Positions 1-50,352 of a stretch of 64,000 bases of DNA are shown here, piece by piece (position 1 is the stretch's first letter; each line of letters starts with the position of its first letter). This DNA comes from Parvibaculum sp. (GTDB taxonomy: Bacteria; Pseudomonadota; Alphaproteobacteria; Parvibaculales; Parvibaculaceae), in the NCBI RefSeq assembly GCF_030651915.1, contig NZ_JAUSBV010000007.1:1-64000 (forward strand). The letters run 5' to 3'. Under the pieces are notes generated by a model. It ran no database searches and was not told the DNA's origin. It saw only the letters and a list, made by a program, of their open reading frames with translations. Made by a program: the position numbers and the translations under genes.

Positions 1-1741
<1,741 letters not shown>

Positions 1742-1807: not shown

Positions 1808-2043
1808 ACTTATCCCCGCTGATGCCGGGTCGCCACAGTTCGGGGGGCGCCCGTGTTTTTCTGCCACACGAGGATAAGTTCACTTATCCCCGCCGCCAAA
1901 AATGCGCGATCGGCCGGATTCGGGTCCGCCGGGGGCGTTTGTGACAGTTTTATGACAGTTTTGTGACAGAGGGGGGGGTCCGCAGCCGTTTTTTGCTGCC
2001 GTTCTGGCGCCCCGGCGGCCGGTTTTATCCGTGAGCGGATGAT
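1808..2043. repeat. Composite intergenic repeat, copy A (ACTTATCCCC boxes, TGACAG iterons, G-run)
   Basis: The parts are: an ACTTATCCCC box at 1808-1817; a near-perfect palindrome at 1870-1891 (GAGGATAAGT, 2-bp spacer, ACTTATCCCC); three TGACAG units at 1942, 1953 and 1964, exactly 11 bp apart; eight G at 1971-1978; and a small hairpin ATCCG-tgag-CGGAT at 2027-2040. The same parts recur at 30205-30441, in another convergent gap. The function is unknown. The layout would suit a protein-binding array, or a structured element between converging transcripts. Confidence 0.75.
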
Positions 2044-2131: not shown

Positions 2132-3664
2132 TCAGTTCTCACGCACTTCAAGGCCCAGATCGCGCACCTTGCGATAAAGCGTCGAGCGGCCGATGCCCAG
2201 CCGTCTTGCGACTTCGGTCATGTGGCCCTTGTACTTGTCGATGGCGAGGCGGATCATTTCCGCCTCGATGTCCTCGAGCTTGCGCACATTGCCGGCCTCG
2301 TCGGTGATCGAGATGCCGTCGGCGAAGTTCGAGCGCGCGAAGTCGGCCAGCGTATGCGTCTGTGCCGGCGCGTGGTTGCGCGAAACGAAAGAGACCGTGC
2401 CGTCATCATCCGCCGCGAAGGCCGGCGCGGCGGGCGCGGCCGGCGCGTGGGCGCGCGGCATCGCCTCGTCCTCATAGCCCTTCACCATGCTGGCGACCTG
2501 CGGGAAGTCGGAGACCTGCAGCGTCTCGCCGTCGCAAAGCACGATGGCGCGGAAGACCGTGTTCTCGATCTGGCGCACATTGCCCGGCCAGTCATAGGCG
2601 CACAGCATGTCGAGCGCCGTCTGCGAAAGTCCGACCACGTCCTTTCCCTCTTCGGCCGCGAGGCGGCGGATGAAATGCGCGATCAGGTCGGGCACATCCT
2701 CCTTGCGCGCCCTGAGCGGCGGCACATGGATCGGGAAGACGTTGAGGCGGTAATAGAGGTCTTCGCGGAAGCTGCCTTCCTTGACCATCTGCAACAGGTC
2801 GCGATTGGTCGCCGAGATCAATCGGATATCGACTTTTACAGGCTTTTTCGAGCCGACCGGATCGACCTCGCCCTGTTGCAGCGCGCGCAAGAGCTTGACC
2901 TGGATGTCGAGCGGCAGTTCGCCGATCTCGTCGAGGAAGAGCGTGCCGCCCGAGGCTTCCTGGAATTTGCCGGCGTGTTTGTCGCTGGCGCCGGTGAAGG
3001 CGCCCTTCTCATGGCCGAAGAGAATGCTCTCGACCAGGTTTTCAGGAATGGCGCCGCAATTGACGGTGATGAAGGGTTTGCCGGCGCGTTCGCCTTCGCC
3101 CTGGATGGCGCTGGCGATCAGTTCCTTGCCGACGCCCGACTCGCCTTCGATCAGGATCGGGATATTGGATTGCGCGGCGCGTTTGCCCAGCCGGATCACC
3201 TGGTCCATCGCCGGGCTGCGCGCGATCAGGTCGCCGAAGGTCAGGCGGCCGTGCTGGCGTTTCTGCAGGCGGCTGATCTCGCCGGTCAGCGCGTTGACTT
3301 TCAGCGCGTTGCGGATCGAGACATGCAGCCGCTCGGGGCTGACCGGCTTCACGACGAAGTCGGCCGCGCCTTCGCGCATCACATTGACCACCGTCTCGAT
3401 GCCGCCATGCGCCGTCAGCACGATGACGGGGAGGTTGGGCTTTGACGGGTGGGTGCGCTTCAGCACTTCCAGCCCATCGACGCCCGGCATCACCAGGTCG
3501 AGAATCACCAGCGAAATGTCGGCGCCGGCCGGTCCTTCGAGATATTCGAGCGCGGCGGCGCCGCCGTCGACCGGAATGGCGCGGTAACCGTCACGGTTAA
3601 CCACTTCCTCCAGAATCCGTCGCTGCGCCGGATCGTCGTCGACGATAAGGATCGCCTGGGTCAT
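2132..3664 (-). CDS. Sigma-54-dependent response regulator (REC-AAA-Fis)
   Basis: This 510-residue protein has the NtrC layout. The receiver domain (1-120) has the acidic pair D9/D10, phospho-acceptor D56, T84 and K106. The AAA+ domain has Walker A GESGVGKE near 174 and the sigma-54 contact loop GAFTGA at 221-226. A proline/alanine-rich linker follows (about 405-435), then a C-terminal Fis-type helix-turn-helix (MTEVARRLGIGRSTLYRKV). In the family, phosphorylation triggers oligomerisation and ATP-driven opening of RNA polymerase-sigma-54 promoters. No partner histidine kinase is adjacent, so the signal is unknown. It is transcribed alone and has its own terminator. The alanine-rich linker is longer than in NtrC itself, so I do not assign NtrC, NtrX or FlbD. 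Confidence 0.92.
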   Translation of the reverse strand: MTQAILIVDDDPAQRRILEEVVNRDGYRAIPVDGGAAALEYLEGPAGADISLVILDLVMPGVDGLEVLKRTHPSKPNLPVIVLTAHGGIETVVNVMREGAADFVVKPVSPERLHVSIRNALKVNALTGEISRLQKRQHGRLTFGDLIARSPAMDQVIRLGKRAAQSNIPILIEGESGVGKELIASAIQGEGERAGKPFITVNCGAIPENLVESILFGHEKGAFTGASDKHAGKFQEASGGTLFLDEIGELPLDIQVKLLRALQQGEVDPVGSKKPVKVDIRLISATNRDLLQMVKEGSFREDLYYRLNVFPIHVPPLRARKEDVPDLIAHFIRRLAAEEGKDVVGLSQTALDMLCAYDWPGNVRQIENTVFRAIVLCDGETLQVSDFPQVASMVKGYEDEAMPRAHAPAAPAAPAFAADDDGTVSFVSRNHAPAQTHTLADFARSNFADGISITDEAGNVRKLEDIEAEMIRLAIDKYKGHMTEVARRLGIGRSTLYRKVRDLGLEVREN

Positions 3665-27230: not shown

Positions 27231-29132
27231 ATGGCCAGCTACAAGGACACCTACGACGCCTGGAAAAAGGACCCTGAGGGCTTCTGGGCCGAAGCGGCCA
27301 AGGAGATCGACTGGTTCAAGCCGGCCACGCAAATCCTTGAAGTCAAAGATGGCCTCTCGCGCTGGTTCGTCGGCGCTGAAACCAACACCTGCTGGAACGC
27401 GCTCGACCGTCACGTCAAGGCGGGCCATGGCGCGCGCACCGCGCTGATCTATGACTCGGCCATGCTCGGTCATGTCAAGAAATTCACCTATGCCGAACTC
27501 CTCGAGAAAGTCTCGCTCTTTGCCGGCGTGTTGCAGCGCCGCGGCATCGAGAAAGGCGACCGCGTGCTGATCTACATGCCGATGGTGCCGCAGGCCGCTG
27601 TCGCCATGCTCGCCTGTGCGCGGCTCGGCGCGATCCATTCGGTGGTCTTTGGCGGCTTCGCGCCGAAGGAGCTGGCAACCCGCATCGACGATGCGACGCC
27701 GAAGCTGATCGTCTCGGCCTCCTGCGGCCTCGAGCCCGGCCGGGTGCTCGCCTACAAGCCGCTGCTCGACAAGGCGATCGAGATGAGCACGCACAAGGTC
27801 TCGGCCACCATCGTCTTCCAGCGCGAAATGGAGAAGGCCACGCTCGTTGCCGGACGCGATTTCGACTGGAAATCCGAGATGGACAAGGCCGCGGCCGCCA
27901 ATGCGCGGCCCGAATGCGTCCCCGTTGCCGCCACCGATCCGCTTTATGTGCTCTACACCTCGGGCACCACCGGCAAGCCCAAGGGCGTCGTCCGCGACAA
28001 TGGCGGCCACATGGTGGCGCTGAAATGGTCGATGAAGAATGTCTACGACATAAATCCCGGCGACACGTTCTGGGCGGCGTCCGATGTCGGCTGGGTCGTC
28101 GGCCACAGCTACATCGTCTACGGCCCGCTGGTGCATGGCTGCACCACGATCCTTTTCGAGGGCAAGCCGGTCGGCACGCCCGATGCCGGCACCTATTGGC
28201 GCATCATTTCGCAGCATGGCGTCAAGGCAATGTTCACCGCGCCCACCGCCATCCGCGCCATCCGCAAGGAAGACCCGCAGGCCGCGCTTGTCGGCAAATA
28301 CGATCTCACGAAATTCGAGGTGCTTTATCTCGCCGGCGAGCGCGCCGATCCCGACACGATCCAGTGGGCCGAGAAGGCACTGTCGGGCCGCCCGGTCATC
28401 GATCACTGGTGGCAGACCGAAAGCGGCTGGCCGATGGTCGCAAACCCGATGGGGATCGAGCGCCTGCCGGTCAAATACGGTTCGCCCTCGGTGCCGCTGC
28501 CGGGCTACGAGATCCATGTCGTCGACGAGGCCAACAAACAGGTGGGGCCCAACACCACAGGCGCCATCGTCGTCAAGCTGCCGCTGCCGCCGGGCTGCCT
28601 GCCGACGCTGTGGCAGAACGAACAGGGCTTCCGCGAAAGCTACCTCGCCGATTATCCGGGCTACTACAAGACGGCCGATGCCGGCTTCATGGACGAGGAC
28701 GGCTATCTCTATGTGATGAGCCGCACCGACGACATCATCAATGTTGCCGGCCACCGCTTGTCGACCGGCGGCATGGAGGAAGTGCTGGCTGCGCACCCCG
28801 ACGTCGCCGAATGCGCCGTCATCGGCATCGCCGATCCGATGAAGGGCCAGGTGCCGGTCGGCTTTCTGGTCATCAATTCGGGCGTCGCGCGGCCGGCGGG
28901 CGAGATCGAGCGCGAGGCGGTGTCATTGATCCGTGAACGGATCGGTCCCGTCGCCGCCTTCAAGACCGCCATCATCGTCCAGCGCCTGCCGAAAACCCGC
29001 TCCGGCAAGGTCCTGCGCGGCACCATGCGCAAGATCGCCGACGGCGAGACATGGGACACGCCCGCCACCATCGACGACCCGGCCGTGCTCGGCGAAATCG
29101 AAGCGGCGCTGAAGACGGGGCTGGGGAGGTAA
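27231..29132 (+). CDS. prpE: Propionate--CoA ligase
   Basis: This 633-residue acetyl/propionyl-CoA synthetase-type enzyme starts YKDTYDAWKKDPEGFWAEAA and has ARL-type segments LGAIHSVVFGGFAPKELATR, YTSGTTGKPKGVVRDNGG, WWQTESGWP and the acetylatable lysine in PKTRSGKVLRGTMRK. The N-terminus (TNTCWNALDRHV) and length fit PrpE better than Acs, which has a different opening and a longer chain. It activates propionate for the methylcitrate or methylmalonyl route. GGGGGAG precedes ATG 27231. Confidence 0.9.
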   Translation: MASYKDTYDAWKKDPEGFWAEAAKEIDWFKPATQILEVKDGLSRWFVGAETNTCWNALDRHVKAGHGARTALIYDSAMLGHVKKFTYAELLEKVSLFAGVLQRRGIEKGDRVLIYMPMVPQAAVAMLACARLGAIHSVVFGGFAPKELATRIDDATPKLIVSASCGLEPGRVLAYKPLLDKAIEMSTHKVSATIVFQREMEKATLVAGRDFDWKSEMDKAAAANARPECVPVAATDPLYVLYTSGTTGKPKGVVRDNGGHMVALKWSMKNVYDINPGDTFWAASDVGWVVGHSYIVYGPLVHGCTTILFEGKPVGTPDAGTYWRIISQHGVKAMFTAPTAIRAIRKEDPQAALVGKYDLTKFEVLYLAGERADPDTIQWAEKALSGRPVIDHWWQTESGWPMVANPMGIERLPVKYGSPSVPLPGYEIHVVDEANKQVGPNTTGAIVVKLPLPPGCLPTLWQNEQGFRESYLADYPGYYKTADAGFMDEDGYLYVMSRTDDIINVAGHRLSTGGMEEVLAAHPDVAECAVIGIADPMKGQVPVGFLVINSGVARPAGEIEREAVSLIRERIGPVAAFKTAIIVQRLPKTRSGKVLRGTMRKIADGETWDTPATIDDPAVLGEIEAALKTGLGR

Positions 29133-29372: not shown

Positions 29373-30182
29373 ATGGCCGCAGGCGAAACTCTCAAGGGCA
29401 AGGTGGCGATCGTCACCGGCGGTGCCAGCGGCATCGGTCGCGCGGTCGCGCATGCCTTTGCCGATCAGGGCGCCAAGGTGATGGTCTGCGATATCGACGA
29501 GGAAGCCGGCGCGGCGGTGGCGGCCGACATCGTCGATCGCGGCGGCGAGGCGGTGTTCCGCCATTGCGATGTCGGCGAGCGGCTCGACGTGCGCAATCTC
29601 GTCTGCGCGACGACCGATGCTTTCGAGCGCCTCGACATTCTCGTCAACAATGCCGGCGTGGTTTCGAAGGGTGCCAGTTTCCTGACGCTCGAGGAAGAAG
29701 AGTTCGACCGCGTCATCCGCATCAATCTCAAGGGTCAGTTCCTGGTCGGCCAGGCCGCCGCGCAGCAAATGGTCAAGCAGATCGAGGCGGGCGGCCCGCC
29801 CGGCACCATCATCAACATGTCGTCGATCAACGCCGTTCTCGCCATCGCCGACCAGACCGCCTATGTGACGTCGAAAGGCGGCGTCAAGCAATTGACCGAG
29901 GCGATGGCGCTGTCGCTGGCGCCTTACGGCATCCGCGTCAACGCGATCGGCCCCGGCACCATCGCGACGCCGATGGCCGGCGCCGTCAACACGGATGAAC
30001 GAGCCCAGAAGGTGATGATGTCGCGCACGCCCTTGGGCCGCGTCGGCCAGCCGGAGGAAATCGCCTCCGTCGCCGTCTTCCTCGCCTCCGACGCCGCCAG
30101 CTACATGACCGGTCAGACCATCTATGCCGATGGCGGCCGCCTCTCCCTCAACTACCTCGCCCAGCCGCCGGTGAAGCGGTAG
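29373..30182 (+). CDS. Short-chain dehydrogenase/reductase
   Basis: This 269-residue classical SDR has the cofactor motif TGGASGIG (15-22), D40 in VCDID that favours NAD(H), NNAG (92-95), catalytic S150/S151, and Y164 and K168 in YVTSK. Its C-terminal segment GRVGQPEEIASVAVFLASDAASYMTGQT is that of FabG/3-oxoacyl reductase-like or sugar dehydrogenases. The substrate is not deducible. It is flanked on both sides by repeats and ends in a convergent gap. Confidence 0.9.
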   Translation: MAAGETLKGKVAIVTGGASGIGRAVAHAFADQGAKVMVCDIDEEAGAAVAADIVDRGGEAVFRHCDVGERLDVRNLVCATTDAFERLDILVNNAGVVSKGASFLTLEEEEFDRVIRINLKGQFLVGQAAAQQMVKQIEAGGPPGTIINMSSINAVLAIADQTAYVTSKGGVKQLTEAMALSLAPYGIRVNAIGPGTIATPMAGAVNTDERAQKVMMSRTPLGRVGQPEEIASVAVFLASDAASYMTGQTIYADGGRLSLNYLAQPPVKR

Positions 30183-30204: not shown

Positions 30205-30441
30205 GGGGATAAGTCGACTTATCCCCGCTTTCGTGTCGCGCGACGCTCAGCGCATCGTGCGCCGGCACTTATCCCCGCCCTGCAAAACCTGCTTTGCAAA
30301 AACGAAAACCCCGCCGTCATCCGGCGGGGTCGCGCAAAAGCGGGGATAAGTTTTTTCAAAAAACCCGTATCATCCGTAGACGGATGAAAATTCCGGGTGT
30401 TTGTGACAGTTTTATGACAGTTTCGTGACAGAGGGGGGGGG
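30205..30441. repeat. Composite intergenic repeat, copy B
   Basis: The parts are: a perfect palindrome at 30205-30226 (GGGGATAAGT, CG, ACTTATCCCC); a further ACTTATCCCC box at 30267-30276; the inverse box GGGGATAAGT at 30342-30351; a hairpin CATCCG-taga-CGGATG at 30371-30386; TGACAG at 30404, 30415 and 30426 (11-bp pitch); and nine G at 30433-30441 touching the TAA of trcR. The order and spacing match copy A at 1808. Confidence 0.78.
30303..30330 (-). terminator. Terminator, probably of trcR
   Basis: The 9-bp stem ACCCCGCCG/CGGCGGGGT has a 5-nt loop and is followed on the minus strand by TTTCGTTTTT. It lies within composite repeat copy B, 112 bp past the trcR stop. Confidence 0.75.
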
Positions 30442-31179
30442 TTACGCCTCGTCGTCGCTGTCGATTTTGACGTCCTTGAGGCTCGCGAACACGCTGTCGG
30501 CGTCGTAGCTCTTGCGCTCCTCGTCTTCCGCTTTCTTTTCCGGCGCGGCGATGGTGGCGTGCAGCGGTTCGGCGGGCTGGGGCGCGGTTTCGCTCGCCGG
30601 CAGCAGCGTTTCGGAAATACCGGCCGCCTTGTTGGCCTTCTTGCGTTCGCGTTCGGCCTTGCGGGCGGCCTTGTTGACCGCCGCGTCGAGCTCGATTTGC
30701 GAGCAGAGACTGAGGGTTACGGGATCGACCGGTTTGATGTTGGGCGCGTTCCAGTGGCTGCGGTCGCGCACGCTCTGGATTGTCGGCTTGGTGGTGCCAA
30801 CGAGGCGCGCCACCTGCGCGTCGGTCAGTTCCGGGTGGTTGCGCAACAGCCAGGCAATGGCGTCCGGGCGGTCCTGGCGGCGCGAGACGGGCGTGTAGCG
30901 CGGTCCCTTGCGCGCCGGCATGGGCGGCAATTTGTATTTGCTTTCAGCGGTTTGCAGGCGCTCGTCCGGGTCGTTCTGGCAGCGCTCGATTTCGGCGCGC
31001 GTCAACTGGCCGGAGACCACGGGGTCCATGCCCTTGATGCCCTGTGCCACGTCGCCATCGGCGATGCCCTTCACCTCAAGCACATGGAGGCCGCAGAAAT
31101 CGGCCACCTGGTCGAAGGTCAGCGCGGTATTCTCGACCAGCCAGACAGCGGTCGCCTTGGGCATTAGGGGCTGAATCAT
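30442..31179 (-). CDS. trcR: TrcR-type cell-cycle regulator (DUF1013)
   Basis: This 245-residue conserved alphaproteobacterial protein opens MIQPLMPKATAVWLVENTALTFDQVADFCGLH. A second helix-turn-helix-like segment lies around 107-135 (DAIAWLLRNHPELTDAQVARLVGTTKPTIQSVRDR). The C-terminus is acidic and low complexity (190-245). The DUF1013 family has been named TrcR, a transcriptional cell-cycle regulator; I rely on memory for the name. ATG 31179 follows AGAGGAA. Confidence 0.82.
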   Translation of the reverse strand: MIQPLMPKATAVWLVENTALTFDQVADFCGLHVLEVKGIADGDVAQGIKGMDPVVSGQLTRAEIERCQNDPDERLQTAESKYKLPPMPARKGPRYTPVSRRQDRPDAIAWLLRNHPELTDAQVARLVGTTKPTIQSVRDRSHWNAPNIKPVDPVTLSLCSQIELDAAVNKAARKAERERKKANKAAGISETLLPASETAPQPAEPLHATIAAPEKKAEDEERKSYDADSVFASLKDVKIDSDDEA

Positions 31180-31324
31180 GTCGGTTCCTCTGATCCACCC
31201 GGCGAGCCCGCCGGATAAACCGCTTTTCGTGTCCATCGAAGAATGAGTTAGGGCGTTATATAGGGCGAAAAAGACGCCAATGAAAGCGGAATGATGCGGC
31301 CGCCGCGAAATGGCTGCGGAGCGC

Positions 31325-31355
31325 AAAAAGGCCGGAATCCTTGGGATTCCGGCCT
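31325..31355 (-). terminator. Terminator of the SYLF gene
   Basis: The 12-bp perfect stem AGGCCGGAATCC with a TTG loop is followed on the minus strand by TTTTGCGC. It lies 23 bp beyond the SYLF stop and is separate from the trcR promoter further on. Confidence 0.88.
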
Positions 31356-33409: not shown

Positions 33410-33733
33410 ACACTCGTAGTTAAGGCATTAGAAATACAGCGCTTTTAGTTGCGGTATCACAATGTTCGGGTGCCTTTCATCTTGTCGTTGACGCGTCAAA
33501 TTGCCACAAGATTAACTTCCTGTTAGGAATGATCTCGCTAGGGTGACCTTGCGTAATCCAGTTCTCTGGATTTCTGAGTGGCTCCTATCCACTCTGTTTG
33601 ACGCCTCCCTGTTAGAACTTGAGCCGCGGGCTTTCCCGCGGCTCTTTTTTGTCCGTTGACCCCTCGCTGGCACGGATATTGATCCCTCAGACCCTGACTG
33701 TGCCGCAATGGCGCGATTTCAGGGGTTTGTGGG
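33410..33733. other. 324-bp gap with a terminated non-coding transcript
   Basis: There is no protein gene here. The region is AT-richer than its surroundings. It ends in a very strong terminator (33621-33650) that cannot belong to the upstream gene, which ended 210 bp earlier. It is better explained by an RNA gene, annotated separately. A candidate promoter is TTGACG at 33488 with a weak ATTAAC after 17 bp. Confidence 0.65.
33535..33650 (+). ncRNA. Candidate small RNA with anti-Shine-Dalgarno loop
   Basis: Three stacked hairpins are visible: AATCCAG-ttct-CTGGATT (33555-33572); GAGTGG-CTCCTAT-CCACTC (33576-33594), whose loop contains the anti-SD CUCCU; and a terminator GAGCCGCGGG-cttt-CCCGCGGCTC followed by six T (33621-33650). 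A second CCTCCC lies unpaired at 33604-33609. The layout is that of the alphaproteobacterial sRNAs that pair with ribosome sites. The 5' end is an estimate. Confidence 0.55.
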
Positions 33734-50193: not shown

Positions 50194-50352
50194 CCGGGTG
50201 CTGCCTGGTGCGTCAGGAACACATACTCTCGGGGCCTTACGGTCCTCAAGGGAGCTGTCCCTGAGGGAGACCGTGGTCTTCTTCATACGGCGCCCACCTA
50301 CGTTAGTAGGTCTCCGGGGAACGAAGTTCCAACGGCCAAGGTGGCCCCACCT
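50194..50352 (+). ncRNA. ssrS: 6S RNA
   Basis: This is the classic zapA-6S-cyclo-ligase position. The central hairpin pairs CGGTC and CTCAAGGGA with TCCCTGAG and GACCG around a GCTG loop (about 50239-50274), as in proteobacterial 6S. A second hairpin CACCTACGTTAGTAGGT and a partial outer stem follow. 6S sequesters RNA polymerase-sigma-70 in stationary phase. A possible promoter is TTGACC (50158) with the AT-rich GATAGAATA at 50182. Ends are estimates. Confidence 0.75.

Follow-up and report, generated by a model that had tools for sequence, protein, structure and literature searches.

The two copies of a composite repeat in the window (the whole 64,000-nucleotide stretch of Parvibaculum DNA analysed here) belong to a dispersed set of about 50 to 75 elements per genome. 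The set is composite in anatomy, evenly spaced along the chromosome, conserved between species in the position and orientation of many copies, drifts in sequence as a whole and is restricted to part of the genus. A conserved, evenly spaced set of this size suggests docking sites for a chromosome-organising or insulating protein. The reading tentatively preferred here, at a probability of about 0.45, is that an OmpR/PhoB-type regulator and a second protein dock at these composite elements and serve chromosome architecture or insulation. From the sequence comparisons below, we infer that the element would be bound, by what kind of protein and by which candidates, and to what effect.

Anatomy of the element

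Both window copies carry the parts that the earlier note had described, namely boxes, TGACAG three times at 11-bp pitch and a G-run, as follows (coordinates are those of the window).

1808–1817, plus strand: ACTTATCCCC box (the reverse complement of GGGGATAAGT), copy 1
1870–1891, unstranded: paired inverted boxes GAGGATAAGT / ACTTATCCCC forming a near-palindrome, copy 1 (one-mismatch inverted box at 1870–1879, ACTTATCCCC at 1882–1891)
1939–1969, plus strand: triad of copy 1, TTG and three TGACAG at 11-bp pitch (TGACAG starts at 1942, 1953 and 1964)
1970–1978, plus strand: A and G8 run, copy 1 (A at 1970, G8 at 1971–1978)
2027–2040, unstranded: ATCCGTGAGCGGAT palindrome-like motif, copy 1; found near some copies, association weak
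30205–30226, unstranded: perfect palindrome GGGGATAAGT-CG-ACTTATCCCC, copy 2 (boxes at 30205 and 30217)
30267–30276, plus strand: ACTTATCCCC box, copy 2
30341–30351, plus strand: CGGGGATAAGT box, copy 2 (box match starts at 30342)
30372–30385, unstranded: ATCCGTAGACGGAT motif, copy 2
30401–30431, plus strand: triad of copy 2, TTG and three TGACAG at 11-bp pitch (TGACAG starts at 30404, 30415 and 30426)
30432–30441, plus strand: A and G9 run, copy 2 (A at 30432, G9 at 30433–30441)

Copy 1 lies where a type I restriction R-subunit-like gene (218–1741, plus strand) converges on a sigma-54-type response regulator gene (2132–3664, minus strand), and copy 2 where a short-chain dehydrogenase gene (29373–30182, plus strand) converges on a TrcR-family gene (30442–31326, minus strand). 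The gene adjoining copy 1 shows 99% identity to a Parvibaculum record. With up to one mismatch, ACTTATCCCC was found eight times in the window against 1.05 expected, and seven of the eight lie within the two element gaps; the recurrence of the element parts in these gaps is not due to chance. Folding of the window copies gave z scores of −1.2, −2.3, −1.3 and +0.3 (four folds), at most mildly unusual, and Rfam returned no match at the elements, so an RNA structure or intrinsic terminator hairpin was not supported. Elsewhere in the window, Rfam matches were obtained for the alphaproteobacterial sRNA BjrC1505 (33505–33651) and for 6S RNA (50195–50351).

The Parvibaculum genome containing the window (G000; 3,498,796 bases in 11 contigs) holds 73 exact matches to TGACAG-N5-TGACAG-N5-TGACAG, against one for a reversed control, and five further places at one mismatch. 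At up to two mismatches the counts were 84 and 80, and the control is uninformative at that level because the repeat also holds the reversed letters. The sequence GTGACAGAGGGGGGG, with up to one mismatch, was found 68 times in G000 and not at all in the reversed control. Overlapping 11-bp shifts were counted as a single copy, and a further triad (C4:66037) lying 125 bp from its neighbour was treated in the same way, which left a working set of 75 places. Seventy-two of these are strict copies, defined by a G-run of at least four within 12 bases 3′ of the triad; one of the three places without a G-run (C8:945637) is a Pho box in the promoter of a pstS-like gene. The G000 consensus reads TTTG-TGACAG-TTTTA-TGACAG-TTTTG-TGACAG-A-GGGGGGG. 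The earlier note would have settled for a local duplication had there been two copies and no others, with none in relatives; the genome-wide copies, carried also by relatives and often at the same places, reject that explanation and establish a dispersed family. The G-run, which the same note had listed among the parts, did not hold up as a general one: it is absent from the consensus of two related species, G002 and G013 (a few G013 copies have one), and is thereby ruled out as an essential part.

The boxes, CGGGGAYAAGT, number one to several per element, in either orientation and sometimes as inverted pairs, mostly on the side opposite the G-run. The sequence ACTTRTCCCC occurs 103 times in G000, against six for the reversed control. 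One hundred of these sites were listed. A triad is present within 400 bp of 88 of them; 86 of the 88 are found on the far side from the G-run, and 67 are on the strand opposite TGACAG. The listed sites place at least one box at 52 of the 75 G000 triads. The remaining 12 are orphans, near which no triad-like core was found; eight orphan boxes (L402, L403, L404, L405, L409, L410, L412 and L413) stand 2.8–6.6 kb from a triad, four of them at 5.2–5.4 kb. The exact 11-mer, counted in both orientations, was found near triads 83, 29 and 60 times in G000, G002 and G013, respectively, and more than 600 bp away 0, 1 and 1 times in 181, 224 and 248 kb of fetched sequence. The 8-bp box GGGGAYAA is present on either strand within 350 bp of 62/75, 39/47 and 44/52 elements in the three species and missing from that range at 13, 8 and 8. 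These shorter boxes lie on the side before the triad in 146/153 (G000), 76/99 (G002) and 92/107 (G013) cases, a one-sidedness that is weaker in G002 than in the other two, and their number per element ranges from 0 to 8.

On the other side of the triad, near +53, inverted CTGTCACAA half-sites accompany 15/75 elements in G000, 9/52 in G013 and 0/47 in G002. Palindromes of the form ATCCGT-NN-RCGGAT occur in the window at 2027–2040, 28929–28942 and 30372–30385. Across the sets they lie near 6/75 elements in G000 (one match in 181 kb of far sequence), 1/47 in G002 (two in far sequence) and 4/52 in G013 (one in far sequence). Similar motifs adjoin variant triads in L066, L068 and L070. These triads and one in L072 occupy the place of copy 1, and the sequence beyond looks different each time, for which reason the far side of the copy 1 gap may be an insertion hot spot.

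Distribution, position and spacing

The looser triad TGAC-N7-TGAC-N7-TGAC gave 17–78 matches in 15 of 27 Parvibaculum genomes and 0–3 in the other 12; overlapping matches were counted, and the value of 17 comes from a 74%-complete genome, the remaining carriers having 48–78. The 13 genomes from the rest of the family each gave one match or none. A sample of 289 genomes with a completeness of 80% or more was drawn across the class; apart from G000, all 288 stayed at or below seven triads, and several of these counts come from local tandem arrays. Because carriers are confined to part of the genus, the element set in this spelling appears to be an innovation within Parvibaculum. A single group of carriers is consistent with one OmpR-type regulator (G000 C10:432168) that is 88–99% identical among seven carriers and 73–80% identical to three non-carriers, in a comparison covering rows without G013, G025a, G003a and G001b. 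Copy 1 had no match in plasmid and phage collections, from which records near the window's genome may be missing, and a mobile element of plasmids or phages was set aside on this result. The one viral contig with an exact triad, from IMG/VR (L436:3133–3160), has it as a triple tandem repeat in AT-rich DNA, a plain array with no boxes in the 700 bases read.

Loci were matched between species through blastp comparison of the predicted genes closest to the element (E ≤ 1e-10, >45% identity). A flanking-gene counterpart among the 52 G013 copies was found for 50 of the 75 G000 copies, in the same orientation relative to the shared genes in 48 and with the match on both sides or inside the same gene in 30; the other 25 had none. 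Between G000 and G002, 33/75 copies were matched (30 in the same orientation), and between G002 and G013, 27/47 (25 in the same orientation). These counts use 47 of 48 G002 copies, L243 having no triad by regular expression, and omit two of 54 copies in G013. A few pairs are probably false, such as L004–L292 (58% identity, one side, opposite orientation) and L016–L271 (56%); the G000 copies L004 and L016 were both assigned to L292 in G013 and both to L271 in G002. Five G000 copies were called inside genes, and for three of them another species has a copy in the same gene (L012/L295, L203/L255/L334 and L202/L259); some in-gene calls may reflect over-extended gene predictions. With two-thirds of the G000 copies having a G013 counterpart, the pattern is not that of a mobile repeat, whose insertion sites would differ between species.

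The sequence of the triad differs between these sets. The G013 type is TGACAGTTTTTTGACAGTTCGATGACAG, ATCGA being another common second spacer; G002 has mostly TGACGGTT...TGACAGTTCGATGACAG; G004 and G006 have mostly TGACGTT or TGACGGTT types, with a half-site that is mostly CGTCA. Mean differences per 28 bases were 2.4 (G000), 2.6 (G013) and 4.3 (G002) within a genome, the G002 set being the less uniform, and 4.6 to 6.2 between genomes. For the 29 G000–G013 pairs with matches on both flanks the mean is 4.3, scarcely below that of random pairs (4.6), and in 28 of them the G000 copy is closer on average to copies of its own genome than to its G013 counterpart. Each set would be kept uniform either by a common binder or by homogenisation, less strictly in G002.

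The earlier note had placed both window copies between converging genes. Over-representation in such gaps was borne out across the three species and exclusivity was not: the 164 placed copies (of 174, with 10 in-gene or untyped copies excluded from the test) fall into 59 convergent, 82 tandem and 23 divergent gaps, which rejects a rule of convergent gaps only. The baseline, 229 other gaps of 60 bp or longer from the G002 and G013 loci, comprised 28 convergent, 125 tandem and 76 divergent gaps. Against it the copies show an excess in convergent gaps (odds ratio 4.0, p = 3e-8) and a deficit in divergent ones (odds ratio 0.33, p = 1e-5). For G000 alone against a pooled baseline, the figures were 26/70 vs. 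33/265 for convergent (p = 1e-5) and 8/70 vs. 83/265 for divergent gaps (p = 8e-4). Against the window's own 36 gaps, including the two element gaps, convergent enrichment had p = 0.01 and divergent depletion was non-significant (p = 0.44). Genes were called by a simple codon-usage script trained on 34 window ORFs, so single gap assignments may be wrong. For genes on the G-run side that point towards the element, the 3′ end is often close, within 30 bp of the triad in 18/45 cases in G000, 9/24 in G002 and 11/32 in G013. Some copies in tandem gaps stand about 100–130 bp upstream of a start, and for these ordinary regulation is allowed.

The 72 strict G000 copies define 63 within-contig intervals with a mean of 46 kb and a coefficient of variation (CV) of 0.54. 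Random placement gave 0.93 ± 0.10, and none of 20,000 simulations was as even as the observed set, which has no interval below 10 kb against 12.1 expected. With all 75 places the CV was 0.56 (using approximate sizes for contigs C9 and C10, where the 72-copy value used corrected ones) and one interval fell below 10 kb. The 54 places in G013, on a single 3.59-Mb contig, have a mean spacing of 67 kb and a CV of 0.575, computed with a rounded chromosome size; the 48 places in G002, on a single 3.91-Mb contig, have a mean of 83 kb and a CV of 0.60. In both species 0 of 20,000 simulations were as even, and the CV expected by chance across the three species was 0.93–0.97. The three spacing tests are not independent because copy positions are shared.

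Orientation follows strand asymmetry. The strand carrying TGACAG tends to have the lower GC3 skew once coding direction is corrected for and the 400 bp flanking the element on each side are excluded (p = 1e-6 in G000, 1e-7 in G002 and 4e-7 in G013; the three tests are not independent, since orientation is common to the species). No relation was found between orientation and net gene direction (p = 0.63, 0.46 and 0.29 in G000, G002 and G013). The check for replichore bias that the earlier note had proposed gave a mixed answer, with replication direction taken from parS and dnaA as origin markers. In G013 a moderate bias appeared by both markers (38/52 by parS, p = 0.001; 37/52 by dnaA, p = 0.003), and in G002 it appeared by parS (32/48, p = 0.03) and not by dnaA (26/48, p = 0.67). 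Runs of equal orientation are fewer than after shuffling in G002 (206 of 20,000 shuffles gave as few) and weakly so in G013 (1,338 of 20,000) and G000 (1,176 of 20,000).

Candidate binding proteins

The statement that no named element has this makeup needs a qualifier, as the triad has the geometry of a Pho box and, in this species, nearly its sequence. In the available text of one report, a PhoB site consists of two 11-bp direct repeats with CTGTCAT (PMC2648988). Direct repeats of CTGTCAT-like half-sites with an 11-bp period were found in G000 and G013; in copy 1 this geometry reads on the minus strand. The PstS model TIGR00975 had no match in G000, and a search with TIGR02136 returned a pstS-like gene, below the family cut-off, with phoB about 5 kb away. 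The promoter of this gene carries CTGTCACAAAACTGTCATGCAACTGTCG, to which the element consensus on the same strand is identical at 23 of 26 positions. In each of the five species scored, the pstS-like box has a positive score (7.8 to 31.0 bits, full length) against the profile built from that genome's elements. It is the best match to its own genome's profile in G000 and, by full-length score alone, in G013; in G002, G004 and G006 the pstS-like box of another genome outscores the own one. Unlike a Pho box, the element combines three half-sites, recurs at even spacing in about 70 places with many in convergent gaps, adds mostly one-sided boxes and drifts to the CGTCA half-site in G004 and G006.

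The PhoB recognition helix, RTVDVHVGRLR (the reading frame was located by the string RTVDVHV), is identical in 13 of 13 genomes, eight with the set and five without it, across triad types, and so stays unchanged while the triad shifts from TGACAG to TGACGT between species. The copies do not lie, as a set, in promoters of phosphate genes, and at least 59 of 164 have no promoter position because they stand in convergent gaps. PhoB binding without regulation would have a precedent, as E. coli PhoB is described, in the available text, as having many transcriptionally inert, intragenic sites (PMC10294691). The binder was not found among the three OmpR-type regulators compared (PhoB, C2:52655 and C10:432168). 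The second, an attractive candidate for the triad in its own promoter, was rejected since no counterpart was listed in G002 or G013 (E ≤ 1e-30, score groups), and the third since its recognition helix is the same in genomes with and without the set. In G000 (L396, C2:51500–54500) and in L397–L401, the promoter of a response regulator gene that precedes a sensor-kinase-like gene holds a TGAC triad; the first repeat of this C2:52655-type promoter triad resembles its own genome's triad type in G000, G004 and G006.

The constancy of the 11-bp pitch between species whose letters differ makes it plausible that a protein binds the three repeats on one DNA face, as had been proposed. Collectively, the strong Pho-box resemblance, set against the placement of the copies and the constant PhoB helix, makes an OmpR/PhoB-type protein, PhoB or a relative, the likely kind of binder.

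Possible roles of the set

Under the preferred reading, each copy would belong to a chromosome-wide set of about 50–75 composite docking sites with its origin in one group of Parvibaculum species. The 11-bp triad would hold three winged-helix subunits of OmpR/PhoB type (PhoB or a relative), arranged in tandem on one DNA face, and a second protein would occupy the CGGGGAYAAGT boxes, mostly 20–200 bp to one side. Together, these proteins would form a polar nucleoprotein knot, repeated at mean distances of about 45–85 kb, preferentially at gene ends and less often between divergent promoters. The knots would act as nucleoid domain, loop or segregation anchors, architectural or insulating in role, and not in promoter activation. 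Even spacing, fixed positions, polarity and the preference for gene ends are better accounted for by such a structural or insulating set than by promoters, by terminators or by a mobile repeat. The main doubts are that the binder was not found, that some copies lie near gene starts and that an old repeat may be kept uniform by gene conversion; it also counts against this reading that 12 of the 27 genus genomes live without the set in this form (0–3 triads). A bolder and more doubtful version is a lineage-specific chromosome ruler, in which PhoB or a relative and the box protein would have been recruited to about 60 near-regular polar sites and recognition would drift with the sites as positions stay fixed.

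We consider it unlikely that the set is a functionless fossil, an intergenic repeat of slow turnover that spread in an ancestor, stayed in fixed places and was homogenised by gene conversion. Uniformity within a genome and difference between genomes are also expected from gene conversion, and many bacterial intergenic repeats occupy 3′ ends and convergent gaps; even spacing, however, is unexpected of a spread repeat. Homogenisation would also have to work on a very short tract, since the 28-bp triad shows little variation in G000 and G013, whereas an element may carry anything from 0 to 8 boxes. The recurrence of three of five in-gene copies in the same gene of another species speaks against it too, as does the lack of a match to copy 1 in the plasmid and phage collections, subject to the possible gap in their records. 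The preference for gene ends could instead point to transcription termination, each copy being a Rho loading site or a protein roadblock that halts read-through between genes. The RNA of the CTGTCA strand would be C-rich with pyrimidine-C steps every 11 bases, which is the basis for Rho loading, and the frequent gene ends within 30 bp of the triad and the enrichment of convergent gaps agree with such a role. We nevertheless judge it improbable, given spacing that is even at tens of kilobases, a mere 50–75 copies for an estimated 3,000 genes, many copies beside gene starts, a C-run missing from the G002 and G013 consensus, and the folding and Rfam results.

Lowest in probability is an ordinary Pho regulon, in which the triads would be PhoB boxes controlling neighbouring genes under phosphate limitation. 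It would account for the near-identity of CTGTCACAAAACTGTCATGCAACTGTCG to the consensus, the positive own-profile scores in five species, the one triad of 75 that is the pstS-like promoter (C8:945637) and the copies 100–130 bp before a start. Against it stand the convergent-gap copies and the even spacing, the lack of a G-run at the pstS-like box, the presence of the set in part of one genus only and the constancy of the PhoB helix while triads change.

Known systems share single aspects with the element. The sites of Noc, SlmA and MatP, which serve nucleoid occlusion or macrodomain organisation, are short palindromes dispersed in tens per chromosome and bound by one structural DNA-binding protein. 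The element set likewise consists of tens of near-identical sites over the chromosome, but is built as a polar direct-repeat triad with a second type of box and has a binder that is only predicted. KOPS are strand-biased 8-bp octamers in hundreds of copies; the element resembles them in following strand asymmetry and differs in being compound, in numbering about 70 copies and in having only a moderate orientation bias against the origin markers. REP/BIME and CIR repeats are dispersed, mostly intergenic, frequent in convergent gaps and compound in anatomy. All of this applies to the element, which, in contrast to them, is evenly spaced, keeps its places and orientation across species in many copies, has no hairpin core that could be found and gave no plasmid or phage match with copy 1. 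Spaced motif pairs of unassigned role, with tens to about a hundred mostly intergenic copies and many in convergent gaps, are described in PMC5217627; in the passages available they have other sequences and come from other taxa, and the words Parvibaculum and alphaproteobacteria are absent from its main text as available. A published account of the element was not found in literature, mostly at title and abstract level, on Parvibaculum repeats, regular sites, Pho boxes, ChvI, nucleoid occlusion, motifs of convergent gaps and PhoB ChIP-seq.

Regular spacing of protein sites is an assumption of models of nucleoid folding and segregation and, to our knowledge, is rarely legible directly from bacterial chromosome sequence. 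If the sites act in chromosome architecture, the role of spacing becomes testable, and the 15 Parvibaculum genomes with the set and the 12 without it in this form offer a natural comparison. The joint drift of the copies would offer an example in which one protein and about 60 sites co-evolve. The chromosome ruler, if true, would be a fast-evolving counterpart of Noc, SlmA or MatP, and PhoB, should it prove to be the binder, would link phosphate sensing with chromosome structure.
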